From NCBI GenBank assembly GCA_038396585.1, contig CP121691.1:1612001-1676000 (forward strand): DNA of 64,000 nt, written 5' to 3'. This DNA comes from Vallitaleaceae bacterium 9-2 (GTDB lineage Bacteria; Bacillota; Clostridia; Lachnospirales; Vallitaleaceae). Shown piece after piece: positions 672-21,585 of this stretch. The notes beneath the pieces are model-generated. The model ran no database searches. It was not told the DNA's origin and worked only from the letters and a program-made list of their open reading frames with translations. How positions within the stretch are numbered: position 1 is the stretch's first letter; each line of letters starts with the position of its first letter. The position numbers and the translations under genes are program-made.

Positions 672-1128
672 ATATAAATAAGTAAATACTATCATTGAAC
701 TAAAAATAGGATAAAATCATCAAGGGGACATAAGTAATAACCAAAGCAAATGACAAGAGGGAGTGATTTGTTTGAAGGTACTTGTCAAATGGCAAGAGAG
801 AATTAATAAGGTGGTTGTTATTCCATATTTTTCATATCAATTTTCTTTTTCCATATTCGATACGCAAATATATAAAATATAAGACGCACTTGAGTTGTTG
901 AGTGAACGTCAATTTAACTGAACCTTTTTCTGCATGTAAAAAAGGCGGTGAATAATAAGAGGTAACGGATTGAGGAGAGTATTTTGGGGAGCGAAAGGTC
1001 AACAAATCATAGATAGACAATCTCTAAAATTCCGAGCTATTTTAAATTTCATGAAGCAATAGAGGAAAATTCTTTTCCTTTATTTCGTGTACATAAAATT
1101 CATCAAAATTAAGGATAGGAGGAAGAAA
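672..1128 (+). other. Long non-coding leader upstream of cheY
   Basis: About 450 bases with no credible gene. Visible structure: GACAAG/CTTGTC arms near 751 and 782, a bulged 8-bp hairpin at 883-910 (GACGCACT with AGTG-AA-CGTC), and an A/T-rich hairpin at 923-945 (CCTTTTT with AAAAAGG). I compared it by eye with the conserved cores of c-di-GMP, TPP and other common riboswitches and recognised none. It may be a plain 5' UTR or an unknown regulatory RNA. Confidence 0.4.
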
Positions 1129-1488
1129 ATGAAAAGGTTAATGATTGTAGATGATGCAGCGTTCATGCGAGCAACGATAAAAAGAATGCTTGATAGCCAT
1201 GAATATGAAGTGGTTGCTGAAGCTCCAGATGGAAGTGAAGCTGTAAAGCTATATAAACAGTATCAACCGGACATTACAACAATGGACATTACCATGCCGA
1301 ATATGACAGGAATTGAAGCGCTCAAAGCAATAAAGCTATATGATGCCAATGCAAAAATTGTTATGGTTACCTCGATGGGACAAGAAAGTTTTATTCGAGA
1401 GGCAATTATGAACGGAGCCTCTTCATTTATTGTTAAACCATTCCAAAAGGAGAAATTGTTAGAAGTATTAGATGGTATAACGAAATAG
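1129..1488 (+). CDS. cheY: CheY chemotaxis response regulator
   Basis: A 119-residue single receiver domain. The acidic pocket is Asp8/Asp9, the phospho-acceptor is Asp53 in the segment TMDITMPNMTG, and the conserved lysine lies in FIVKPFQ near the C-terminus. No output domain is present, as expected for a protein that acts by binding a partner after phosphotransfer from CheA. I chose ATG 1129 because AGGAGG sits 8 bases upstream; the reading frame extends to 1087 but that stretch encodes a basic, non-homologous leader. It is the first gene of an operon with cheA 10 bases downstream. Confident family call. The motility or cellular output it controls is not shown in the window, since no flagellar or pilus genes are present. 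Confidence 0.93.
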   Translation: MKRLMIVDDAAFMRATIKRMLDSHEYEVVAEAPDGSEAVKLYKQYQPDITTMDITMPNMTGIEALKAIKLYDANAKIVMVTSMGQESFIREAIMNGASSFIVKPFQKEKLLEVLDGITK

Positions 1489-1498
1489 GAGGAATAGC

Positions 1499-3577
1499 AT
1501 GAGTAAGTCGTATATAGATGAACCGATGACAGAAGCTTTTGTTTATGAGACCTCGCAAATCGTAGAGACATTGGAAGAGGTTATTATAGCTAGTGAAAAA
1601 GTAGGAATGTTTAGTGCGGAGTCCATCAATGAAATCTTTAGATTTATGCATACAATCAAGGGCTCTTCAGCAATGATGATGTTTAATGATATGAGTACTC
1701 TTGCACATCGTTTGGAAGATATATTTTATGTTATTCGAGAAGACATGGAGATATCTTATGATTTTACGGTGCTTATTGATTTAATATTGGAAAGCATTGA
1801 TTACTTTAAAATAGAATTGATGAAAGTGAAAAATGGGGAGAACCCCGATGGTGATCAATCTGTTTTATTAAGTCAAGTTTCAAGTTATTTAGAGGCAATA
1901 AAAACCCCGGATACGACCGTCGTAAAGCCAAAAGAAGAACCACAGCAAAAATATTATATCCGTCCAAACAAAAAAGACCAAAATGTTCAATGCTACCAGG
2001 CAATTATATGGTATAAGCCAGATGCAGAGATGGAGAATATACGTGCCTACACAGTTGTTCATAATATCGCTGATTTGGTTGAAGAAGTTGTTTATTCACC
2101 AGCAGATATTATTGAAAACGATAAATCCGCAGACGAAATTCGTCAGCATGGGTTTAAGCTTTTGATGCAGACAACCAGTACAAAAGAAGCCATAAAGTCC
2201 TATCTAGAAGGCACCATCTTTATGGAAAAGCTGGAGTTTGAATCTATTACAGAGCAACAGTACGCTGAATTTTTAGCAGCACAAAGCCAACCGGAAGAAT
2301 CCAATGAAATCAAGATTCCGGAAACATCAAAAAAATATGTAGAAAGTCAAGAAAAAAAAGAAAAACAAGATATTTCAATCAATACAAAACAAAGCATGAT
2401 TAGTGTGAATATCGATAAGTTGGATAAACTTATGGACATGGTAGGTGAGTTGGTTATAGCAGAAGCCATGGTCACTCAAAATCCAGAGATGATTGACCTA
2501 GAAATTGAAAGCTTTGATAAGGCGTCAAGACAATTGCACAAAATCACTGGAGAGCTTCAAGATATGGTCATGGCCATTCGCATGATTCCGCTTTCAAAAA
2601 CATTTATGAAAATGCATCGCATCGTTCGTGACATGACGCGTCGATTAGATAAGCAAGTTCAATTAGAAGTTTTTGGTGAAGAAACTGAAGTAGATAAAAA
2701 TATTATAGAAAAGATTGCTGACCCATTGATGCATATTATCCGTAATGCTATTGACCATGGGATTGAAAGTGCATCTGAGAGGATAGAGAAAGGAAAATCA
2801 TCTCAAGGCAGTATTATATTAGAAGCAAAAAATTCAGGTAGTGATGTATTAATTTGTATAAAAGATGATGGAAAGGGTTTGGATAAGAAAAAGTTATATG
2901 ACAAAGCGATTGATCAAGGTTTAATCAATTCTTCTTTTGGGGAATTATCAGATCGAGAGTTGTATCACTTGATTTTACATCCGGGATTTTCCACAAAAGA
3001 AGAGGTGACAGAATTTTCAGGAAGAGGCGTTGGCATGGATGTTGTTGCCAAAAATATTGAAAGTGTTGGAGGAACTGTCCTTGTGGACAGTGTCCCAGGG
3101 GAAGGAACAACAATCACCTTAAAGATTCCTCTTACATTAGCGATTATAGAAGGAATGAATATTAAAGTAGGTCATTCAAGATTTACCCTTCCTATCGTGA
3201 CCATAAGAGAATCATTTAGACCTCAAAACTCAGAAATCATAAAAGATACACATGGACAGGAGATGATTATGGTTCGGGGACTTTGCTATCCGATTGTCCG
3301 TTTGAAAGAGGAGTATGATATACCTCATGGAGAAGAAGATGTTGAAAAAGGAATCTTAATCATGGTAGAAGAAGACAATAAATCTTGCTGCATTTTTGCC
3401 GATGAATTGTTGGGGCAGCAACAAGTCGTTGTCAAAGCATTACCGGAATATGTTAAAAAATATAAACAAATAAAAGGACTTGGAGGATGTACGCTCTTAG
3501 GTGACGGAAGTATCAGTCTCATACTCGATGTTGGAGAATTTAACTTGTCAAACGTTAATGCAAAAGTTCAAGTATAA
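1499..3577 (+). CDS. cheA: CheA chemotaxis histidine kinase
   Basis: A 692-residue kinase with the usual CheA order: N-terminal Hpt/P1 domain with phospho-acceptor His51 (FMHTIKGSSAMM), a P2-like segment around 150-260, a P3 dimerisation helix pair starting near 305 (ISVNIDKLDKLMDMVGELV), a P4 ATPase with N box NAIDHGIE and G box GRGVGMDVV, and a C-terminal CheW-like P5 domain. All catalytic motifs look intact. It autophosphorylates on ATP and passes phosphate to the CheY and CheB of this operon, and perhaps to the extra receiver proteins further down. RBS AGGAGG precedes ATG 1499; cheW follows after 12 bases. Confidence 0.95.
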   Translation: MSKSYIDEPMTEAFVYETSQIVETLEEVIIASEKVGMFSAESINEIFRFMHTIKGSSAMMMFNDMSTLAHRLEDIFYVIREDMEISYDFTVLIDLILESIDYFKIELMKVKNGENPDGDQSVLLSQVSSYLEAIKTPDTTVVKPKEEPQQKYYIRPNKKDQNVQCYQAIIWYKPDAEMENIRAYTVVHNIADLVEEVVYSPADIIENDKSADEIRQHGFKLLMQTTSTKEAIKSYLEGTIFMEKLEFESITEQQYAEFLAAQSQPEESNEIKIPETSKKYVESQEKKEKQDISINTKQSMISVNIDKLDKLMDMVGELVIAEAMVTQNPEMIDLEIESFDKASRQLHKITGELQDMVMAIRMIPLSKTFMKMHRIVRDMTRRLDKQVQLEVFGEETEVDKNIIEKIADPLMHIIRNAIDHGIESASERIEKGKSSQGSIILEAKNSGSDVLICIKDDGKGLDKKKLYDKAIDQGLINSSFGELSDRELYHLILHPGFSTKEEVTEFSGRGVGMDVVAKNIESVGGTVLVDSVPGEGTTITLKIPLTLAIIEGMNIKVGHSRFTLPIVTIRESFRPQNSEIIKDTHGQEMIMVRGLCYPIVRLKEEYDIPHGEEDVEKGILIMVEEDNKSCCIFADELLGQQQVVVKALPEYVKKYKQIKGLGGCTLLGDGSISLILDVGEFNLSNVNAKVQV

Positions 3578-3589
3578 AGAGGTGAAGAC

Positions 3590-4087
3590 ATGAATGAAGA
3601 AATGAATATCGTTCAAGAAGATTTAGAAGAGGATACTCAAAAAGGAAAATTTTTAACTTTTTGTCTCGGGGAAGAATCCTATGGGATTGATATCATGTAT
3701 GTTACAGAAATCGTAGGTATACAGCCGATAACTGTTGTTCCGGAACTACCGGATTTCATTAAGGGCATCATTAATCTTAGAGGAACCATTATTCTAGTAA
3801 TGGACGCAAGAGTCAAGTTTAAAAAAGAAATAAAGCAATACAACGACCGAACATGCATTATCGTTATTGATGTGTTGGATTTGTCAATAGGGATTATTGT
3901 TGATGCTGTCTCAGAAGTGTTGAATATTAGTGAAGAAAATATTGTCCCACCGCCTAATTTAAATGCGGGAGCCAGAAAGTACATTAAAGGTGTGGGAAAG
4001 AGCGAAAACAATGTAACATTAATTCTTGATTGTGAAACTTTATTGGATGAAAATGAAATTGATGAGATCAAGGGAAGTAATGAATAG
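3590..4087 (+). CDS. cheW: CheW coupling protein
   Basis: A 165-residue CheW-type SH3-like protein, with the family pattern [19 protein letters not shown] near the N-terminus and [14 protein letters not shown] in the middle. It links chemoreceptors to CheA. A roughly 20-residue acidic extension precedes the domain. RBS GAGGTG lies 7 bases before the ATG. It overlaps no neighbour; the receptor gene begins 10 bases after the stop, so the receptor, CheW and CheA are made together and likely form one dedicated array. Confidence 0.93.
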
Positions 4088-4097
4088 GAGGATGTAT

Positions 4098-5789
4098 ATG
4101 AAAGGGTTCTTGAACATGAAAATCACAGCAAAACTTATTACTGCATTTGTACTTGTAGCTATTGTCGCTGGAATTGTAGGCCTTGTTGGTATTAATAACA
4201 TGCGAACGATTGATGCCAATGGTCAAATTATCTATTCGAATATGACAGTACCATTAGCAGAAGCAGCAGAAATGGCTACGTTGTTTCAAAAGGTACGGGT
4301 ATATACACGTGATATGATACTTGAAGATGATCCGGAAAAGATTGAAGAAAAGTATCGCACCATTACAACGATTGTTGATGAACTTGATGTAATATCAACC
4401 TCCTTTGGCAATAAAGCGGTGTCTCAAGAAATGAAAGATGCGTTTGAACATTTCTTACAGACACGAAGAGAATTTGGGGCTATACTACCAATGTTTTATG
4501 AATTGTGTATAGAAAATGAAGATGTTAAGGCATATGCCTTAATAAATGGGGATATGCGTATTGCAGCAGACAATGAGCAAGAAGCCATTGATGCAATGGT
4601 CGATATGAAGGTTGAAGATGCCGAGAAGAAAGCAGAAGAAAATAATGCGGTTACGCTAGGATCTATTACAGTAATGATGATACTTATTGGCGGAGCAGTT
4701 ATATTAGCAATAGGATTAGGTATTATTATTGCACGTGTTATTAGTAAACCGCTGGTTCAAATGGTAAACGCCGCGAATCAAATAGCAGAAGGTAATTTAG
4801 CAATTGAGATCACAGTTGATCGAAAAGATGAAGTAGGAATGCTCTCAAAAGCGTTCAAAACAATGACGAAAAATATCAATAATGTTATGACGAACATTAA
4901 TTCTGCGTCTGAACAAGTAGCTTCTGGATCGCGCCAAGTCTCTGATTCAAGTATGTCCTTGTCTCAAGGTGCTACAGAACAAGCAAGTTCCATTGAAGAA
5001 TTGACAGCGTCAATAGAACAGATTGCTTCTCAAACACGACAAAATGCTTCAAATGCTGAAAAAGCTGAAGAAATGGCGACATCTGCACAAAAATATGCGG
5101 AACAAGGAAATACTCAAATGACGGATATGTTAAAAGCCATGGAAGAAATCAATGATTCCTCCAATAATATTAGTAAAATTATTAAAGTCATTGATGATAT
5201 AGCCTTCCAGACAAATATTCTTGCATTAAATGCAGCTGTTGAAGCAGCGCGTGCGGGTCAACATGGTAAAGGATTTGCGGTGGTAGCAGAAGAGGTTAGA
5301 AACCTTGCGGCTAGATCTGCAAGTGCAGCCAAAGAGACAACTGCAATGATTGAAGGCTCAATACATAAAGTTGAAGGTGGTACAAAAATAGCAAATGAAA
5401 CGGCAGAAGCACTTAATAAAATTGTTGAAGGGGTATCTCAAGCAACGTCTTTAGTTGGATCCATCGCAACAGCTTCCCAAGAACAAGCGTTAGGTGTAGA
5501 TCAGATTAATCAAGGGATTTCGCAGATTTCAGATGTTGTTCAAACAACAAGTGCGACCGCACAAGAAACGGCTGCGGCAAGTGAGGAACTATCTGGACAA
5601 GCCGATATGCTAAAATCGCAAGTTGCAACATTTAAGCTTCGCAACATACAAAAAAGCGATGGCTCAGAAGCAATTGATCCCGAAGTACTAAAAATGCTTG
5701 AAAGTATGAAGAATAATGATGCAAATCATAGAGAAAAGAAAAGAAATCGAAAAATATCGCTTAGTGATACGGAGTTTGAAAAATATTAG
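4098..5789 (+). CDS. Methyl-accepting chemotaxis protein
   Basis: A 563-residue receptor from ATG 4098, chosen because AGGAGG lies 7 bases upstream (the frame is open back to 4026 inside cheW). TM1 is near residues 10-33, a small four-helix-bundle-like extracytoplasmic domain follows, TM2 is near 187-213, then a HAMP domain and a long signalling hairpin containing the hallmark segments [14 protein letters not shown] and [13 protein letters not shown]. The C-terminus is a basic, hydrophilic tail ([10 protein letters not shown]) and lacks the NWETF-type CheR tether. The ligand is unknown; the sensor domain is too generic to predict one. It sits between cheW and cheR in the operon. Confidence 0.92.
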
Positions 5790-5843
5790 AGGTACCTGAT
5801 TATCCATAGCTTATATCCTGCCAACATGGAAAGGGGTTTGTTT

Positions 5844-6659
5844 ATGATAAAAATATCGGATGATGAGTTTAGGGTATTAGCGGATTATATAAAAGAGCAT
5901 AGCGGCATCCACTTAAAGGAGCAGAAAAAGGCGCTATTGGTGAGTCGTTTAAGCAGTCTCTTAAATGAAATGGGTATGGATAGTTTGATGACTTACTATA
6001 AGCATTTAAAAGAGGATCAGGAAGGTGAGGAGCTTAGCCGACTTGTCGATCGAATTACAACAAACCATACCTATTTTATGAGAGAAGCTGAGCATTTTTC
6101 TTATTTTTCAGAGACAGTATTACCTTTTTGGGAGAAAAATGCAAAGAATAAAGACTTACGCATATGGTGTGCTGCAAGTTCAACAGGGGAGGAACCATAC
6201 GCATTAGCCATGTTGCTTGAGGATTATTTTAAAATGAAACCTGTTAAGTGGGATAAAAAACTTTTGGCAACAGATTTGTCCTTAAATGCTTTGTCCAAGG
6301 CAAAGCAAGGAGTTTACTCGGCAGATAAAGTAAAGACGTTGTCACGAATTTGGGTATTGAATTATTTTGATAAGATTACCAAAGATGATTATCAGATAAA
6401 GTCAAAACTTAAACAAGAAGTGATTTTTAGACGTTTTAATTTGATGGAGCCTGTGTTTAGCTTTAAGAAAAAATTTCATGTAGTCTTTTGTAGAAATGTA
6501 ATGATATATTTTGACAATGACACCAAAGAGCGACTTATTAAAAAAATATATGATCAGATGGAATATGGAGGCTATTTATTTATAGGGCATTCAGAATCCA
6601 TTAATCGTGAAACGACAGAGTTTAAGTATATTAAACCTGCAGTATACAGAAAAATATAA
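5844..6659 (+). CDS. cheR: CheR receptor methyltransferase
   Basis: A 271-residue SAM-dependent glutamate O-methyltransferase. The N-terminal helical CheR domain is followed by the Rossmann domain with RIWCAASSTGEEPYALAM (SAM site), ATDLSLNAL, and FCRNVMIYF, all family hallmarks. It methylates the MCP and opposes CheB. The frame allows an ATG at 5826, but the GGGG Shine-Dalgarno element lies inside that extension and is correctly spaced for ATG 5844. The 54-base gap to the MCP and the 13-base gap to cheB fit a single operon. Confidence 0.93.
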   Translation: MIKISDDEFRVLADYIKEHSGIHLKEQKKALLVSRLSSLLNEMGMDSLMTYYKHLKEDQEGEELSRLVDRITTNHTYFMREAEHFSYFSETVLPFWEKNAKNKDLRIWCAASSTGEEPYALAMLLEDYFKMKPVKWDKKLLATDLSLNALSKAKQGVYSADKVKTLSRIWVLNYFDKITKDDYQIKSKLKQEVIFRRFNLMEPVFSFKKKFHVVFCRNVMIYFDNDTKERLIKKIYDQMEYGGYLFIGHSESINRETTEFKYIKPAVYRKI

Positions 6660-6672
6660 CCGGGAGGACCGT

Positions 6673-7680
6673 ATGAGTATTCGTGTACTAGTTGTTGATG
6701 ATAGTCTATTGTTTAGACAAATACTTGCAAAAGGCATTCAAACGGATACGGAGATAAAGGTTGTAGCTACAGCAACGGATCCGTTTGATGCAAGAGACAA
6801 AATATTAGAATTTGAACCGGATGTCGTAACTTGTGATATAGAGATGCCAAAAATGAATGGGATTGAGTTTGTCAAACGTTTGATACCTCAGTATCCTGTT
6901 CCGGTAATCGTTGTTAGCTCTTTAAATGATAAAGTGTTTGATGCAATGGATGCAGGAGCAGTTGAATTTGTGGTAAAACCAAATGCCGGATCCCCAGAGA
7001 GTGTTCAAAAGTTTATTGTGAACCTTATTCAAAAAATAAAGGCTGCTTCCAAAGCGACAGTGGTTGTTCAAAACCCCAAAGACTTGGTTGAAAGCAAAGC
7101 AAAGCAAGTAAAAAAACATGAACTTATTGCCATTGGAGCTTCAACAGGTGGAACTGAAGCCATTTACTCAGTGCTAAGTCAATTACCCCTTGGTTTACCA
7201 GGGATAGTAATTGTTCAGCATATTCCGCCTGTCTTTTCAAGGATGTTTGCGGAACGTTTGAACAAACAAACACATTTTCATGTAAAAGAAGCTACTAATG
7301 GAGATATAATACAGCGTGATCATGTATATCTAGCACCTGGAGACAAACACATGGAAGTGAAAAAAGCAGAACATGGATATTTTCTTAAGGTTTTTGAAGG
7401 AGAAAAAGTCAACGGGCATTGCCCTTCAGTAGACATATTATTTCATTCAGTGGCGCAAACGCTTGGAGATCGAGCATTAGGTGTGATTCTCACGGGTATG
7501 GGCTATGATGGAGCTAAGGGCATTACAGTAATGAAGCGTAAGGGAGCTGTAACTTTGGGACAAGATGCAGCATCTTCTGTGGTATATGGCATGCCAAAAG
7601 CAGCTTATGAGCTTGGGGGAATATCTAAGCAGACGTCGTTAAGTTTTATGGGGCATCATATTATGAAGTTATTGCAATAG
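6673..7680 (+). CDS. cheB: CheB protein-glutamate methylesterase
   Basis: A 335-residue two-domain protein. The receiver domain (about 1-125) has Asp10 and phospho-acceptor Asp55. The linker around 130-148 leads to the methylesterase domain with the catalytic triad Ser157 (AIGASTGGTEA), His183 (VQHIPPVFS) and Asp279 (LTGMGYDGAKG). It removes methyl groups from the MCP when phosphorylated by CheA and may also deamidate receptor glutamines, since no cheD is seen here. ATG 6673 is preceded by GGGAGG; the frame is open upstream to 6607 inside cheR but without homology. Confidence 0.94.
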   Translation: MSIRVLVVDDSLLFRQILAKGIQTDTEIKVVATATDPFDARDKILEFEPDVVTCDIEMPKMNGIEFVKRLIPQYPVPVIVVSSLNDKVFDAMDAGAVEFVVKPNAGSPESVQKFIVNLIQKIKAASKATVVVQNPKDLVESKAKQVKKHELIAIGASTGGTEAIYSVLSQLPLGLPGIVIVQHIPPVFSRMFAERLNKQTHFHVKEATNGDIIQRDHVYLAPGDKHMEVKKAEHGYFLKVFEGEKVNGHCPSVDILFHSVAQTLGDRALGVILTGMGYDGAKGITVMKRKGAVTLGQDAASSVVYGMPKAAYELGGISKQTSLSFMGHHIMKLLQ

Positions 7681-7709: not shown

Positions 7710-9965
7710 ATGTATGACCAGTTAGATTTCTATAAGGTTGTTGACACTCTTGGTGATGGGATTATTTGTGTCAATGATGAAAATAAAGTTGTATATATGA
7801 ATCAACGGGCTGCAAAAATCATTGATGCCCCGCATAAAATCCAGAGTAACGCTTCGATTGAGACCTGTTTTAATATTTGCACAGAAAAGTCGGGAACAAT
7901 CATTGCTGATATTATCAGTGATGTTAAGCGTACGATGAAACCACGTGGTTTAGTAAAGGATGCTTTTATTGTTAATCATGAACAGGAAAAAGTATATCTA
8001 TCAGCGAGTATTTCTCCGATTGAGATGAAGGGAAGTCTATACATTAGCATTAATTTTCGAGAAATTACAAAAATAAAATTATTGGAATTGGAAAATATTG
8101 AACAAAAGAAAAACTTTGAGACGATATTTAACCGATTGCCTCTAGGAATTATTATTGTCAATAAAGAATTAAAAGTGCTGCAAGTTAATCCGTTTATGAT
8201 TCATCATTTCCAAATTGATGTACAGCAAAATATGGATATTATTTTAGGAAAGTTATTGCGTTGCTCGAGAATTGGAGATGAGCGGTGCGGGATTGACCAT
8301 CGATGTGAAGAATGTCTAATTAAGAAAAACGTGTATTTGTTAACGGAACAAGATGAAGAGTATGTGACAGGACAAGTCAAGTTTGAGCGCAATATCGATG
8401 ACATGGATATCATTAAACATTATCAAATTGGGTTTGTTCGATTGCAAAGGAAAAAAGAAGAACAGATTATGTTGATTATCCAAGATATTACTGAATTGAT
8501 TGAAAATGAAAAGCGGATCAATGATGCAAAAGAAGAAGCGGAACGTGCTAACAAACTTAAAAGTGAGTTTTTGTCCAATATGAGTCATGAAATACGCACA
8601 CCACTTAATGGAATTATAGGGATGATTGATCTATCAAAACGCAGTGTAAAAGATCAAGAGGTCATCGATTATCTTAATACAGCAAAGACATCAAGCATAA
8701 ATCTGCTTGAAATAATCAATAGTGTTTTGGATATATCAAAAATTGAAGCCGGTAAATTTGTGATTTATCGTAAAATGTTTAATTTAAAAAAAATGTTGGA
8801 AGAAGTCTATTTTGAAAATAAGGCGAAAATTAAAAGCACGGCAGTTGAATTACGTATAGATGCTTATAATTATCCAATTGAAGTGTTCAAATCAGATAGT
8901 CTAAGAATAAAGCAAGTCTTGAATAACCTTGTTGATAATGCAATAAAATTTACGGAAAAAGGAACAATATATATCGGGTATCAAATAGTAAAAAAGAGTG
9001 ACACTTATGATTTTATGGTCACCATTAGCGATACAGGCATAGGGATGGATGCATCATATCAGGAAAATCTTTATGAAAATTTTTCTCAAGAAGATGGATC
9101 GTATACACGCCAAAAGGGAGGCACGGGCTTAGGATTAGCCATTTCAAAAAGTATTGTTGAAAAGATGCAAGGAAGTATTTTGTGTGAAAGTACGCTTGGA
9201 AAAGGTACGACGTTCACATTGCATTTTTATTTAGAAGAACAAGATTCAACGACATTGAGTATGCAAACAGCAGAGGATACCATTGAAGAAAAACCCATGC
9301 ATATTCCGTCAAGAAAAGGGCGCATTCTTCTTGCTGAAGATGATCCCATAAATCAAAAAATAGTTAAGACACAATTGGAAAATGATGGGCATATAGTAGA
9401 AGTTGCAGTTAATGGCAAGCAAGCCGTTGAATATTATGAGAAAAATCAAAATTATGATTTGGTATTAATGGATATCCAAATGCCAGTCATGAGTGGTTTA
9501 GATGCAACAGATCATATAAGAAGTCTGCAGGAGAAGAAAAGAATTCCAATTATTGCTCTAACGGCATTAGCCTTAAAGGAAGACAAAGAAAAAATTATGC
9601 AGCATGACTTTGATCTATACATAACAAAACCGATTCAGCTTGTACAACTTCAAAATATTGTCATGGATATTTTAAATGTACAGGATATCGATTTATATGA
9701 TCGGGCAAAAACCAATGACAAGGCTCAACTTTTGATAAAAGAGCTTTTAAAAAGTATGCAATACGAAGGGGAAACTTATGATTTCGTTAAAATTAATAAT
9801 CAAGCAGAGATTTTGTTTGATGTGATCGATCAGTATCCTTCTGATCAACTAAGGCGCAATGCACTTCGATTAAAGATGAAGCTTAGAAAAAACAATCCAG
9901 AAAAAATGAAAGTGTTGCTTAATCAGATGCTGCTAGATTTAGAAGAGGATGTATTGCAAAAGTAG
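7710..9965 (+). CDS. Hybrid PAS histidine kinase with receiver domain
   Basis: A 751-residue soluble hybrid kinase; no membrane segment is visible. Order: PAS1 (about 5-120), PAS2 (about 135-265), HisKA with His293 in [13 protein letters not shown], HATPase with [10 protein letters not shown] and [11 protein letters not shown], receiver (about 538-655) with Asp588 in [11 protein letters not shown], then about 95 residues of helical, unassigned C-terminus without an evident Hpt histidine. PAS2 carries four clustered cysteines (185, 193, 199, 202), a pattern suggestive of metal or Fe-S binding or redox sensing. RBS GAGGTGAG precedes ATG 7710. It lies 29 bases after cheB and 28 before a lone receiver, so it is probably part of the same signalling unit. 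The signal is unknown. Confidence 0.9.
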
Positions 9966-9993: not shown

Positions 9994-10386
9994 ATGTTGA
10001 AAATATTAATCGCAGAAGATGATATGGTTAGTCGAAAGTTGCTTTGGAAAGTTTTAGATGAATATGGAGAATGTGATTTGGTGGTCAATGGTCTAGAAGC
10101 TATTGATGCACATATGATGTCTATAGAAGATCAAGAGTTTTATGACTTGATTTGTCTAGATATTATGATGCCTAAAGTTGATGGCGCGAAAGTATTAAAG
10201 ACGATTCGAGATCTCGAAATGCAATATGAGGTCAAAAAAAAAGCTAAGATAATCATGATTACAGCACTCTCAGAGACAGAGGTTGTTGATGATACCTTTA
10301 GCAAGGGAGCAGATGCATATGCGACCAAACCCCTTGATATTGATAAATTCGTTGAAGTAATGAAGAACCTTAAATTGATTGAGTAG
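9994..10386 (+). CDS. Stand-alone receiver domain protein
   Basis: A 130-residue single receiver domain with Asp9/Asp10, phospho-acceptor Asp56 (CLDIMMPKVDGAKVL) and Lys in YATKPLD. No DNA-binding or enzymatic output follows. It is more similar in style to receivers of hybrid kinases than to the CheY of this operon and is the likely partner of the hybrid kinase directly upstream. ATG 9994 has AAGGAGGACG just upstream; the longer frame starting inside the kinase gene is not credible. The next gene begins 8 bases after the stop, linking it to the J-domain protein as a possible output. Confidence 0.9.
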   Translation: MLKILIAEDDMVSRKLLWKVLDEYGECDLVVNGLEAIDAHMMSIEDQEFYDLICLDIMMPKVDGAKVLKTIRDLEMQYEVKKKAKIIMITALSETEVVDDTFSKGADAYATKPLDIDKFVEVMKNLKLIE

Positions 10387-10394
10387 AGGACACT

Positions 10395-11465
10395 ATGAAT
10401 AATAAATTTGTTGATTATTTTCAGTTATTAGAGGTACATATGTTTGCAAGTGAAGAAGCGATTCGATCAGCATATAAGCGCTTAATTGTAAAATATCATC
10501 CGGATAATGATGGAAATAAAGAAAAATTCTTGTTGGTTAAAGAAGCATACAAGACGCTCATAAATTATGAACAACGGCAAGAATACTTTGGAGTATGGAA
10601 ATACAATGTGCTTTCTCAAGAAGATTGCTGTATGGTGACTACAAAGACATATGAAGATATGGCGTTTAACAAGGTATTAGTCACAGTAAATGCATATATG
10701 TTGTATCTAATGAATACACAGTATAAAAAAGCATATGAATTACTTTGCCATGAGTCACAGAGTAGAATTTTTTTGAAAGATTTTATACACTGGCAAGAGC
10801 TTGTAAGTGAAATTCATGAGATTACTAAGTTTAGCAGTTCAGTTGATACGGTTGAATTGGATGAGATATATGGGACGAAGGTTATCTGTTGGGTGAAAGT
10901 ACGAGAGTATAATGTGTTGCTCAATCATTTTGAAGAAGATTTATTTCGACGTGTGTTAGTCTTTGAAAAAGGAGGGTGGAAAATCTATCTTCAAGAGATT
11001 AACATACGTCAAGTTATAAAAAAATACAAAAAAATTGTAGCAACATATAAGAAAAATGCTAAAAATAAAAGAGTTAATCTCAAAAATCACTATGTAACGA
11101 AGTTTTTAGATGAAGAATCATTTGTTCATAACCTTGAATATGAATTTTTAAGATATCAGCGTTATAAACGAACTTTTGGTTTAATTGGAATTGAAGTAGG
11201 AAATATAACAGTACAAAAAATCAATAAAGTTATCCGTAGTATTCATCTGTGTACGCGCATTACAGATTCTTTTTGCACAATAGGTCATAATAAAATCGTT
11301 GTACTATTACCTGAAACAGGTGATAGAGGAATAAAAGCGGTGAATCACAAGCTCCAAAATATATTTAATAAAGAAGGACTCTTAGAAATTCGCATTCAGA
11401 TGGTTATAGTAGATACATCTTTTGAAAGCGTCAAAGAAATATTAAAAGAAACCATAGGTTCTTAA
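10395..11465 (+). CDS. J-domain / NTF2-like / degenerate GGDEF-like fusion protein
   Basis: A 356-residue protein with an unusual arrangement. Residues 5-65 form a J domain with the diagnostic HPD tripeptide at 35-37 (KYHPDND), which stimulates DnaK-type chaperones. Residues about 85-205 look like an NTF2-like fold (short helices, a LLCHESQSR segment, then a strand-rich portion ending in GGWKIYLQEI). After a lysine-rich linker, residues about 235-350 follow the pattern of a diguanylate-cyclase-like domain (LEYEFLRYQRYKRTFGLIGIEV, later IVVLLPETGDRGI) but the GGDEF signature is absent, so catalysis is not expected. It is the last gene of the chemosensory operon. The domain calls for the middle and C-terminal parts are inference from pattern; the J domain is secure. 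Confidence 0.78.
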   Translation: MNNKFVDYFQLLEVHMFASEEAIRSAYKRLIVKYHPDNDGNKEKFLLVKEAYKTLINYEQRQEYFGVWKYNVLSQEDCCMVTTKTYEDMAFNKVLVTVNAYMLYLMNTQYKKAYELLCHESQSRIFLKDFIHWQELVSEIHEITKFSSSVDTVELDEIYGTKVICWVKVREYNVLLNHFEEDLFRRVLVFEKGGWKIYLQEINIRQVIKKYKKIVATYKKNAKNKRVNLKNHYVTKFLDEESFVHNLEYEFLRYQRYKRTFGLIGIEVGNITVQKINKVIRSIHLCTRITDSFCTIGHNKIVVLLPETGDRGIKAVNHKLQNIFNKEGLLEIRIQMVIVDTSFESVKEILKETIGS

Positions 11466-11492
11466 GCGCTTTTTGGGACAGGATAAGGACGC

Positions 11493-11526
11493 ATACATTG
11501 ACAATTGTCGATGTGTATGATAAAGT
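11493..11526 (+). promoter_or_regulatory. arsC promoter overlapping a palindrome
   Basis: TTGACA at 11498-11503, 17-nt spacer, TAAAGT at 11521-11526. A 24-bp inverted repeat centred on GACAATTGTC (11493-11516, two G-T mispairs) covers the -35 and most of the spacer, a layout suited to repressor binding. Confidence 0.6.
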
Positions 11527-11564
11527 GAAACTGAAATTTAATGACCTAAAAAGTGAGGTATAAA

Positions 11565-12010: not shown

Positions 12011-12104
12011 TGTACATCACTAGGGGAGCCGAAAGGCTGAGAAAGTGTTAACTGACCCTCAATAACCTGATACGGGTAGTGCCGTCGAAGGGAAGTGCAG
12101 TACA
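12011..12104 (+). ncRNA. TPP riboswitch (THI element)
   Basis: The aptamer shows the invariant THI-box segments GGGGAGCC, GGCTGAGA, ACCTGAT and GGGTAGTGCCGTCGAAGGGA in the right order. P1 is closed by CACT with AGTG and extended by TGTAC (12011-12015) with GTACA (12100-12104). It senses thiamine pyrophosphate and controls the thiamine transporter gene directly downstream. The P3-side segment 12045-12054 is complementary to 12107-12116, which runs into the expression-platform stem, a possible alternative pairing. Confidence 0.95.
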
Positions 12105-12115
12105 ATCAGTTAATA

Positions 12116-12143
12116 CTCCTTAGAATTATAAGGAGGTTTTTTT
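12116..12143 (+). terminator. TPP riboswitch expression platform hairpin
   Basis: A 7-bp stem CTCCTTA (12116-12122) with TAAGGAG (12129-12135), loop GAATTA, followed by GTTTTTTT that runs right up to the thiT ATG. The 3' arm is itself the Shine-Dalgarno sequence. The same hairpin could therefore end transcription or mask the ribosome site. Confidence 0.75.
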
Positions 12144-12818
12144 ATGTTTAAAAATTTTACACAAGCACTATCAAGCGGTGATTTACAAGCTGTAATCACC
12201 TCAACTATTGGACAAATAATCATTGTAGCGATTGCATTAGTCTTACTGTTATTTGCAGTTGTTTTAGGTGATCGTCACAAGAAAATGTCAGTTAAGGCAT
12301 TAACATATTCGTCCATTGCGATTGCAATTAGTTTTGTCTTATCGCAGATTAAACTCTTTAGTTTACCTCAAGGTGGATCCATTACACCGTTTTCAATGTT
12401 ATTTATTATTCTGATAGGATATTTCTTTGGCGTGAAAACAGGTGTTCTTACAGGGATTGTTTATGGATTATTACAACTTGCCTTTGGGGGTTGGGTTATG
12501 CATCCAATGCAATTATTATTGGACTATCCATTAGCGTTTGGAGCACTAGGATTGTCGGGTCTATTTGCAAATCAAAAGCATGGGTTGGTTGCCGGAATCT
12601 TAGTGGGAAGCATGGGACGGTTTGTATTTCACTTTTTAAGTGGAATTATCTTTTTTGCATCTTATGCACCGGAGACATGGAATCCATTTGTGTACTCGCT
12701 GTGGTATAACTTTTCCTATATTGGTGTTGAAGGAATAGTTACAGCAATTGTTGTTCTTATACCATCAGTTGCACAGGCACTTAGAAGTGTAAAAAAAAGT
12801 GCAATCAATAATATATAA
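12144..12818 (+). CDS. thiT: ThiT thiamine ECF transporter substrate-binding subunit
   Basis: A 224-residue membrane protein with about six hydrophobic helices. Conserved ThiT features are QGGSITPFSMLF, the Gly-rich FGVKTGVLTGIVYGLLQ, and HPMQLLLDYPLAFGALG, which line the thiamine site in the family. It is the S component of an ECF transporter; the energising EcfA/A'/T genes are not in the window. Control by the TPP riboswitch directly upstream strongly supports thiamine as substrate. The ATG follows the AAGGAGG Shine-Dalgarno by seven T residues. An N-terminal 35-residue hydrophobic extension precedes the core. Confidence 0.94.
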   Translation: MFKNFTQALSSGDLQAVITSTIGQIIIVAIALVLLLFAVVLGDRHKKMSVKALTYSSIAIAISFVLSQIKLFSLPQGGSITPFSMLFIILIGYFFGVKTGVLTGIVYGLLQLAFGGWVMHPMQLLLDYPLAFGALGLSGLFANQKHGLVAGILVGSMGRFVFHFLSGIIFFASYAPETWNPFVYSLWYNFSYIGVEGIVTAIVVLIPSVAQALRSVKKSAINNI

Positions 12819-20235: not shown

Positions 20236-20328
20236 CTAGGTGTTACTAATATTTGCGTGGTGAGTTAAAATCAACAGGATCGGTATGCCATGAGCATCAA
20301 CATGCTACAAAGTGCAATCATTGAATAA
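20236..20328 (+). pseudogene. Decayed 3' fragment of a NifX-like gene
   Basis: The bases around 20250-20328 match the end of the NifX-like gene at 17948-18024 at most positions. In frame they read YLRGELKSTGSVCHEHQHATKCNH then stop-like TGA, against YLRGELKSTGSVCHEHHHADECGE in the intact gene, differing at a few residues. Upstream similarity fades and a TAA at 20247 interrupts the frame. No start or RBS remains. It is the fossil of a tandem paralogue or of a duplicated 3' end, separated from the parent by the GH127 gene. Its last bases serve as the antisense 3' end of the EAL gene. Confidence 0.85.
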
Positions 20329-21585
20329 TTTTATTGTGGGTTTTTTAGTATTGATATAAGCTTCAAATGGCTTATAGTTATAGTTTAGAACGACGATGAT
20401 TGGGTTGCCGGATCGGTTGGTTATCTTGAATGAGGTCGTGACACAGACATCGTTACTTAGTCGAGAACGATACGGTTTTGTTACCCAATCCGAAAGTAAA
20501 GGATTGTGCAATCGCGTAAAATATTCTTCGTTACTATGAGAAAAACCTTTAGAATAAAGTCCGAAAAGTTCTTTGTTACGATTGCCAAAACTTGATGTAT
20601 TGATAAATGAATGGCTCATTTGAATACCATTGGCATCAAGAAAATATGAACTTTCAATAAAATGATAGTTGTTGAGTAAGTCATTCATGACAAAGTCAAG
20701 ATCTTGAGAACCGATATTTTCAAAAACCGTTTTTAAGTGGCTGTTAAAGTTGACAATATTAATGATGGCAGATTTTTCATCTTTTTCATATCGAGCATTT
20801 GTGATTTCGCCAACAGATGCGTAGTCAAAGGCCTCAATAATGCGTAGAATTTTGGGATAATCTAATGCCTCTGTTGGTGAAACATAATAGCCTTGTATCA
20901 TTTGTGCACCTGCACGTAGAGCCTTTTCTAAATCATATCTTGACTCTATTCCGGTGGCGATGACTAAGATACCCATTTGATGAGCAATGGAGGTAATATG
21001 TTTAATCAATAATTTTGTGTAATCGCTAGAGGATAAGCGTTTTAACATTTGCTGATTGATTTTAATGATATCTGGATTAAAGAGCATAATTTTATCAATA
21101 TTACTGTAGGTTTTTCCAATATCGTCAATTGAAATATAAAACCCTTTTTTACGATGGTGTTCAATGAATTGTTGCGTTAGTGGTAGATCTTTTTCATCGA
21201 TAGAGAGATTGTCTATATCAATAACAATACGATCAGAAGAAACACCATGTTTTTTTGCGCAAGTTTCTATATAGTTTGATGTAATCGCCGGAACAAAAAA
21301 AGAAAGGTTAATGTTGATGTGCAGCATTACCCGGGGATTTTGATTGGCTATCGGAGCGAAGGCTTCGATGGTTTTGCACACGCAAAGCTGATCGAGTTGT
21401 TTGGCAACACCCTCTTTATGTGCTACAGAAAACAGTTCACTAGGTGAGATGATTCGTTGGTTTGACGGATCAACTCCGCGAACGAAGCTTTCCACACAAA
21501 ATGTGTTTGAATCAATAGGAAGTAAAATTACTTGGAATAGTATTTTTATCGAATGGGTTTGAATTATTTTTTTTATATCTATCAT
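20305..21585 (-). CDS. Degenerate EAL domain protein with C-terminal sensory-like domain
   Basis: A 426-residue soluble protein. Residues 10-245 follow the EAL phosphodiesterase fold: ESF at 32-34, NINLS at 91-95, IDDIG with Asp154/Asp155, Lys175, and QGYYVS from 231. Metal-site glutamates are lost: the ExxE position reads DIDN near 123-126 and the EGVE motif reads TGIE with Thr211. Catalysis of c-di-GMP cleavage is therefore doubtful. Residues about 260-410 resemble a Cache/YkuI-type sensor (YFLDANGIQMS, NEEYFTRLHNP, VTTSFKITN). AGGAG precedes the ATG on the minus strand. The last eight codons run antisense through the NifX-like fossil. Likely a c-di-GMP or ligand-binding regulator. Confidence 0.85.
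   Translation of the reverse strand: MIDIKKIIQTHSIKILFQVILLPIDSNTFCVESFVRGVDPSNQRIISPSELFSVAHKEGVAKQLDQLCVCKTIEAFAPIANQNPRVMLHININLSFFVPAITSNYIETCAKKHGVSSDRIVIDIDNLSIDEKDLPLTQQFIEHHRKKGFYISIDDIGKTYSNIDKIMLFNPDIIKINQQMLKRLSSSDYTKLLIKHITSIAHQMGILVIATGIESRYDLEKALRAGAQMIQGYYVSPTEALDYPKILRIIEAFDYASVGEITNARYEKDEKSAIINIVNFNSHLKTVFENIGSQDLDFVMNDLLNNYHFIESSYFLDANGIQMSHSFINTSSFGNRNKELFGLYSKGFSHSNEEYFTRLHNPLLSDWVTKPYRSRLSNDVCVTTSFKITNRSGNPIIVVLNYNYKPFEAYINTKKPTIKLFNDCTL

Follow-up and report, generated by a model that had tools for sequence, protein, structure and literature searches.

A class C J-domain protein with NTF2-like and degenerate GGDEF domains beside chemosensory genes: a candidate link between c-di-GMP and DnaK

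The window analyzed here, the whole stretch of 64,000 nucleotides from Vallitaleaceae bacterium 9-2, carries at 10395..11465 on the plus strand a single open reading frame with exact bounds, coding for a protein of 356 amino acids in which a J domain with an intact HPD tripeptide is followed by an NTF2-like domain and by a GGDEF domain that has lost its catalytic motif but retained RxxD. The three folds are predicted by model. In two species the gene comes after genes for a hybrid kinase and a receiver, and in a third species after flagellar genes. We propose that the protein may be a class C co-chaperone gated by c-di-GMP that takes DnaK to motility or chemosensory clients, a chain of steps to which we give as a whole a probability of roughly 0.38. 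The sharper version, that c-di-GMP on the dead GGDEF domain fused to the J domain times the remodelling of chemosensory arrays or flagella by Hsp70, is put forward more tentatively.

Results

Domain composition of the J protein

The J domain comprises residues 7-64 (10413..10586) and is matched by Pfam DnaJ with an E-value of 4.9e-14, over the curated cut-off. The HPD tripeptide (residues 35-37; 10497-10505) lies inside it and is flanked by helices 20-34 and 42-56 in the second AlphaFold model. When the eight members of the family were scanned singly, DnaJ matched all of them (E ≤ 0.1), and each carries HPD. DnaJ_C found no match among the Pfam rows of the eight members, and according to Pfam and the model the G/F region, the zinc finger and the DnaJ C-terminal barrels are missing, with other folds in their place; a glycine-rich linker stands behind the J domain in the member from G115 and is absent in the window protein. 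Since the J domain occurs without the DnaJ C-terminal parts, the window protein is, judged by its domain content, a class C J-domain protein, and it is very probably a working co-chaperone.

The middle part of the protein, residues 86-198 (10650..10988), was assigned to an NTF2-like domain related to MecA_N of penicillin-binding proteins (PBPs), and in the AlphaFold model a helix of residues 204-225 (11004..11069) joins it to the GGDEF-like part. No NTF2-type Pfam family matched the window protein alone at E ≤ 1; MecA_N, itself an NTF2-like family, matched five of the eight members at E ≤ 0.1 (best 3.8e-4), the window protein not being among them. Foldseek listed B. subtilis PBP3 (7bn9) and PBP2a for the model, besides diguanylate cyclases and PelD. 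As VIA-align matches fall mostly within residues 230-356, the NTF2-like assignment draws on Foldseek, Pfam and the model. MecA_N probably shares its fold with the middle domain of the J protein, to which it has a weak sequence match; in PBPs, however, it is joined to a transpeptidase (as in L085) and in the window protein to a J domain. A profile of the NTF2-like domain also retrieved long ORFs of PBP size and NTF2-TPR proteins; one of each kind was checked, namely L085, which has MecA_N, and L045. An N-terminal hydrophobic stretch, an NTF2-like domain and TPR repeats follow one another in L045, L107, L108 and L110 (by Pfam for L045 only), and their sequences mark these proteins as relatives of the middle domain. 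Weak Pfam matches to AprA MT2-like, GRHL1_C and SesA in family members were treated as noise.

The second AlphaFold model was based on an alignment of 55 rows, namely eight full-length rows together with 16 DnaJ-type, 12 NTF2-like and 19 control GGDEF fragments (drawn from 30 DnaJ-type, 14 NTF2-like and 21 GGDEF references). It shows the J helices, an alpha/beta domain at residues 86-198 and the helix 204-225, with the elements past residue 240 arranged in GGDEF-type order. With a mean pLDDT of 89.3 against a pTM of 0.59, the single domains are confident and their mutual placement is not, and the added fragments of all three kinds may bias the model towards their folds. The first model, from three rows, was poor (pLDDT 52.9). 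VIA-align matched 6khu (Z 17.6, rmsd 2.1, 125 residues), 3ign (Z 16.4, rmsd 2.6, 127 residues) and PelD with c-di-GMP (4dn0; Z 13.6, rmsd 2.4, 117 residues), nearly all matches falling inside residues 230-356.

Degenerate GGDEF domain

By VIA-align and the family profile, residues 232-356 (11088..11462) constitute a degenerate GGDEF domain. Pfam GGDEF matches the window protein alone weakly (E 0.017; 15.3 bits, cut-off 23.8) and, with members scanned singly, seven of the eight (E ≤ 0.1, best E 6.5e-14). Moreover, a family profile of this domain built from six of the eight members (L034 and L042 left out) matches the solved diguanylate cyclase 3ign with an E-value of 2.8e-23. The identity of the GGDEF-like part is settled by the Pfam matches of the homologues, which also point to that of the NTF2-like part, the window protein alone being matched weakly or without match. 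In the gap-free alignment of the hairpin (D291-SFCTI-GHNKI-VVLLPET), GHNKI (11283..11297) replaces the GGDEF catalytic motif. The motif is missing in all eight members, which read GHNKI (window and same-species copy), DQNTF, KNNVI, KGMRF, KGGKF, GETGF and QNSTF. Among seven members (L034, 97% identical and of the same species, is left out of this and the following counts), the metal-site D at column 267 is found in one, and the N and D of the FKxxND/GHxxGD loop in none, the counts for loop columns being dependent on the alignment. Since the GGDEF motif and the metal-site columns are lost, diguanylate cyclase activity was rejected, and the domain almost certainly has no such activity.

These results bear out the original prediction, which had read from the sequence an HPD tripeptide with its helix pattern, an NTF2-like middle part and an inactive C-terminal part with diguanylate-cyclase layout but without GGDEF. 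Pfam DnaJ and the model helices agree on the J domain, all three domain calls are backed by homologue Pfam matches, the model and structure matches, and the structure prediction that had been set as a check gave in Foldseek and VIA-align a GGDEF fold and no unrelated one for the C-terminal part.

RxxD (R288-D291; 11256..11267), at the position of the c-di-GMP inhibitory site, is invariant in all eight members. For comparison, 19 of the 21 GGDEF references served as controls (17 with GG(D/E)EF, one with GGDEI and one with DGDEF); having been found with the J family's own profile, they are biased towards likeness. Twenty-six columns show identity in 17 or more of the 19 control domains; only E250, R288, D291 and T308 among them are retained by every one of the seven members, and the RxxD pair (R288 and D291) makes up half of these four. 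The loop columns in this count, too, depend on the alignment. However, all 19 controls carry RxxD as well, so that its presence by itself is no proof of c-di-GMP binding and its retention may reflect ancestry or fold; as decisive evidence for binding it was rejected. At the same time, RxxD is no strict requirement of the GGDEF fold, since an intact GGDEF protein of the same genome (L171:14956-16200, motif GGEEF) does without a preceding RxxD (KNSSSRW), albeit as one example. Judged from the alignment, the survival of RxxD while most other functional residues were lost is notable. Additionally, a basic residue (K or R) is found 28 positions past D291 in seven of seven members and in 15 of the 19 controls, which may correspond to PleD R390 and would then be the second basic residue of the site. 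The intact RxxD, a motif that the original prediction left out of account, suggests c-di-GMP, and not phosphorylation, as the input of the protein, and we regard binding of c-di-GMP by the GGDEF-like domain as an even chance.

Distribution, phylogeny and selection

A search for the architecture across genomes, likewise set as a check by the original prediction, recovered the order J - NTF2-like - GGDEF in seven genomes besides that of the window, i.e., in eight of the genomes sampled, two of them conspecific. They belong to one phylum and five taxonomic families (f1, f63, f48, f209 and f184), and in every homologue read out the J domain stands at the N-terminal start and the GGDEF-like part at the end. 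Given the same order in eight genomes, a gene-calling artefact or a single fusion accident was rejected. Within the taxonomic family (22 genomes, searched with residues 71-356), G059, of the same species, is 97-98% identical and G002, a congener, 38-40% identical. At the order level, three of 246 genomes (G000, G059 and G002) gave strong matches (E below 1e-24). Profile searches of the class found G243, G115 and G141, the NTF2-like profile having strong matches in at least four of 391 genomes (E below 1e-40), and the search of the phylum added G669 and G748, with strong matches in at least three of 398 (E below 1e-24); both counts include the window's own genome. All of these searches covered samples of species with differing queries and scored a limited number of candidates, in the class the best six or ten first-look candidates per genome; further members there can have been missed. 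Order searches around G243 and G115 and class searches around G669 and G748 yielded no additional members, and one scan of genome contigs had the same-species MAG as its sole match. DnaJ-type proteins of class A or B in relatives were looked at and not counted as members. A marginal match in another genus of the family (L036, from G011) is a different protein of 298 amino acids on the minus strand, with a receiver-like part and another degenerate GGDEF domain (RETDLVMRYGPMKL) that has kept RxxD and lost the active site.

In the J-domain tree (seven members, 16 others) the members lie on one side of a branch with support of 98/96, and in the GGDEF-domain tree (seven members, 19 others) they do so with support of 91/88. 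This pattern is consistent with one fusion; several branches are long, among them those of the window and G243 copies. Compared with the same-species genome, the gene has a dN/dS of 0.19 on 20 differences (11 synonymous, nine non-synonymous), with values of 0.11 and 0.09 for its NTF2-like and GGDEF-like parts, whereas the J domain alone, with no synonymous and three non-synonymous differences, offers too few for a verdict. On these 20 differences, the coding sequence indicates that the J gene is under purifying selection.

Gene neighborhoods

Upstream of the J gene, all on the plus strand, Pfam identified genes for a CheY-like receiver preceding cheA (1087..1488), CheA (1499..3577), CheW (3590..4087), a chemoreceptor with 4HB_MCP, HAMP and MCPsignal (4026..5789), CheR (5826..6659), CheB (6607..7680; also by NCBIfam), a PAS hybrid histidine kinase with receiver (7710..9965) and, directly upstream of the J gene, a stand-alone CheY-like receiver (9994..10386; Response_reg). 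The J gene starts 8 bases past the stop codon of this last receiver, which in turn comes after the hybrid kinase, so that the layout fits the earlier description as the last gene of a chemosensory operon, and it is probably the final gene of the che operon. Promoter-like sites were found at chance level (45 vs. 48.3 expected), and terminator-like sites slightly above it (9 vs. 5.2 expected), none of the latter lying directly 3' of the J gene. Its downstream neighbor at 11553 is an ORF that we take from its sequence to be arsC-like, preceded by a promoter-like site at 11498, such sites being at chance level there. An imperfect palindrome (11492-11519, around TGACAATTGTC) overlaps this promoter-like site and might be an operator. 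The J protein presumably has no signal peptide, as none was evident when the sequence was read by eye.

In the congener G002, the order chemoreceptor - hybrid kinase - receiver - J is kept, the first two being named from their sequence and the receiver from a match with 79% identity to that of the window; cheR and cheB are not found between receptor and kinase. The receptor gene stands right at the beginning of its 16.8-kb contig, which shows nothing of the region upstream. The receiver was matched in 11 of the 22 family genomes at E ≤ 1e-12, but only three of these have the J gene. Seven of the remaining eight (G005, G006, G009, G011, G013, G016 and G018) have the che cluster up to hybrid kinase - receiver, in the g8 genomes G009, G013, G016 and G018 with a methyltransferase-like gene (again named from sequence) after the receiver in place of J, and in the eighth, G003, the receiver is in another setting. 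The pattern [KR][YF]HPD was absent from the receiver surroundings of all eight, and in G001, the third genome of the window's genus, no match to the receiver or to the J gene passed the thresholds. The J gene is thus not a core component conserved with the chemosensory operon, and since relatives keep the che system without it, it appears as an optional addition. Related che clusters (L159, L160, L161, L162 and L166) also have a second receiver upstream of cheA that is 52-56% identical to that of the window, with a TetR-like gene, named from sequence, next to it in L159, L160, L161 and L162.

A different motility-related setting was found in G243, where the order is HD-domain protein - flagellin - FlaG - FliD - FliS - 120-aa protein - J, with flagellin and FliD identified by their sequence; the contig ends just past the J gene. 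The 120-aa protein (L102:5055-5414, plus strand) has no Pfam match at E ≤ 0.01; the position after fliS often holds fliT. At the remaining loci the genes were named from sequence likeness, and these names are to be taken as presumptive: in G669 the J gene lies between an NYN-like ORF and a large glutamate-synthase-like ORF, in G115 near argininosuccinate genes, and in G141 near a hydrolase and a transporter, with FliW- and YaaR-like ORFs on that contig at a distance of 7 kb. The J gene of G748 is on a contig of only 3.8 kb. Taken together, motility genes adjoin the J gene in G000, G059, G002 and G243 and not in G115, G141, G669 and G748, and there are two separate motility-related settings (window/G002 and G243) among the five distinct loci with several readable neighbors (the other three being G669, G141 and G115). 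For the homologues outside the window's genus, the stretches read, several of them short contigs, showed no such receiver beside the J gene. Homologues do occur near che genes, as G002 demonstrates. The original proposal that chaperone recruitment is an output of the kinase/receiver system held only in part: the triad of hybrid kinase, receiver and J is kept in G002, yet eight of the 11 receiver-bearing genomes have no J gene.

Discussion

Here, we propose that the J domain, with its intact HPD, would stimulate DnaK, while the NTF2-like and GGDEF-like domains would set the place and time of DnaK action. By analogy to PelD and CdgA, the dead GGDEF domain may bind c-di-GMP at the retained RxxD inhibitory site, and this binding could alter the oligomer state or the exposure of the J domain. 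The J protein would thereby bring DnaK to large motility or chemosensory assemblies, such as CheA arrays and flagellar parts, which may be built or dismantled with DnaK help as c-di-GMP changes. A service role of this kind fits the placement of a co-chaperone gene after che or flagellar genes, although we consider motility or chemosensory clients, taken alone, to fall just short of an even prospect.

Several characterized systems resemble parts of this proposal. In class C J proteins, other domains are described as able to select substrate or place, and many members in bacteria as still uncharacterized (PMC6715715). AtcJ of Shewanella, as described in the same source, shares with the window protein a J domain with HPD, the lack of DnaJ_C and zinc finger, additional segments with the potential to direct DnaK, and an operon with possible partners, but has a 21-residue C-terminal extension instead of NTF2-like and GGDEF-like domains and a role in cold growth (PMC6715715). 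PelD and CdgA, like the window protein, have a GGDEF domain without active site and with RxxD intact: B. cereus PelD is reported to bind c-di-GMP via RxxD of its dead GGDEF domain, binding becoming undetectable when R or D is changed (PMC7112168), and Bdellovibrio CdgA was predicted on the same grounds, a dead GGDEF domain with retained RxxD, and then shown to be a c-di-GMP receptor (PMC3271064). In the text available of these two reports, no J domain is described, and binding was measured there whereas it is predicted here (PMC7112168; PMC3271064). The closest published coupling of c-di-GMP to a chaperone that we found, on the account given there, is the PilZ-DnaK type of CsdK1 and CsdK2 from Myxococcus xanthus, in which a domain of c-di-GMP type is likewise coupled to the DnaK machinery, but this domain is of the PilZ family and its fusion partner is DnaK itself rather than a J domain; of the two, only CsdK2 is described as having the full binding motif (PMC10313047). 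As to possible clients, E. coli CheA and FliN are reported to interact with Hsp90 in dependence on DnaJ/CbpA (PMC3708813). Mutants in dnaJ are described as lacking flagella in E. coli, whereas in S. meliloti such a mutant still forms them, so that by this report motility need not depend on J proteins (PMC10055731). No published J-GGDEF fusion was found in the open-licence literature, and to that extent the original statement that no protein of this order had been described is upheld. The novelty would lie in a class C J protein carrying a new kind of input domain, class C J proteins themselves being known.

The proposed gating by c-di-GMP has to be weighed against a reading, close to the original one, in which the class C J protein uses its NTF2-like and GGDEF-like domains purely as protein-binding scaffolds for a client or for the phosphorylated neighboring receiver, with no nucleotide involved. 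Loss of the catalytic motif in every member would agree with this, as would the persistence of the hybrid kinase - receiver - J triad between window and G002, in which the J proteins are only 38-40% identical and the receivers 79%. The seven family genomes that keep hybrid kinase and receiver without J, the eighth with its receiver elsewhere and the lack of such a receiver beside homologues outside the genus, within the stretches read and the several short contigs among them, speak against this reading, as does the persistence of RxxD where most other functional columns are gone; we consider pure scaffolding somewhat less likely than gating by c-di-GMP. It is less probable again that the protein is a general co-chaperone, or one specific for an unrelated client, whose siting beside che or flagellar genes is incidental. 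Four of the eight members do not adjoin motility genes, and the family is rare and patchy, with strong matches in at least four of 391 class genomes and at least three of 398 phylum genomes, the window's own included; mere coincidence, however, would have to explain two separate motility-related settings among only five distinct loci with several readable neighbors.

A decaying or chance fusion without function is already disfavored and very improbable. Signs of decay could be seen in the long branch on which the window copy sits in both domain trees, and in the three non-synonymous changes without any synonymous one in the J part between the conspecific genomes, but the order is the same in eight genomes, the gene as a whole has a dN/dS of 0.19 (11 synonymous and nine non-synonymous differences), and in each of these trees a single branch separates the members from the other sequences (98/96 and 91/88).

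J proteins decide the targets of Hsp70, and the fusion of a J domain to a domain of second-messenger type would link c-di-GMP signalling to the chaperone machinery in a testable way. If the proposed gating is true, c-di-GMP would reach motility via protein folding and not via a motor brake or transcription, which could explain a dedicated co-chaperone for motility assemblies in some Clostridia; in E. coli, some parts of such assemblies are reported to interact with the DnaK/Hsp90 machinery (PMC3708813).

The genome itself probably uses c-di-GMP, since one GGDEF and one EAL protein were found. In 264 kb scanned with profiles (the window and 200 kb beside it), L171:14956-16200 is the one intact GGDEF protein, and the window codes for an EAL-domain protein at 20308-21585 on the minus strand (Pfam E 1e-37), whose C-terminal part matches Cache below the threshold. 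This protein reads ESFVR at the position of EALLR, the usual form in EAL domains. Rfam detected no c-di-GMP riboswitch in the window at the gathering threshold; it found only a TPP riboswitch (12012-12135, 61.7 bits), which is accompanied by a terminator-like hairpin and precedes a gene for a ThiT/YuaJ thiamine transporter (12144-12818). Furthermore, in two g8 genomes (L017 and L020) a class B-like DnaJ gene adjoins a PAS-GGDEF-HD-GYP gene whose GGDEF motif is intact.
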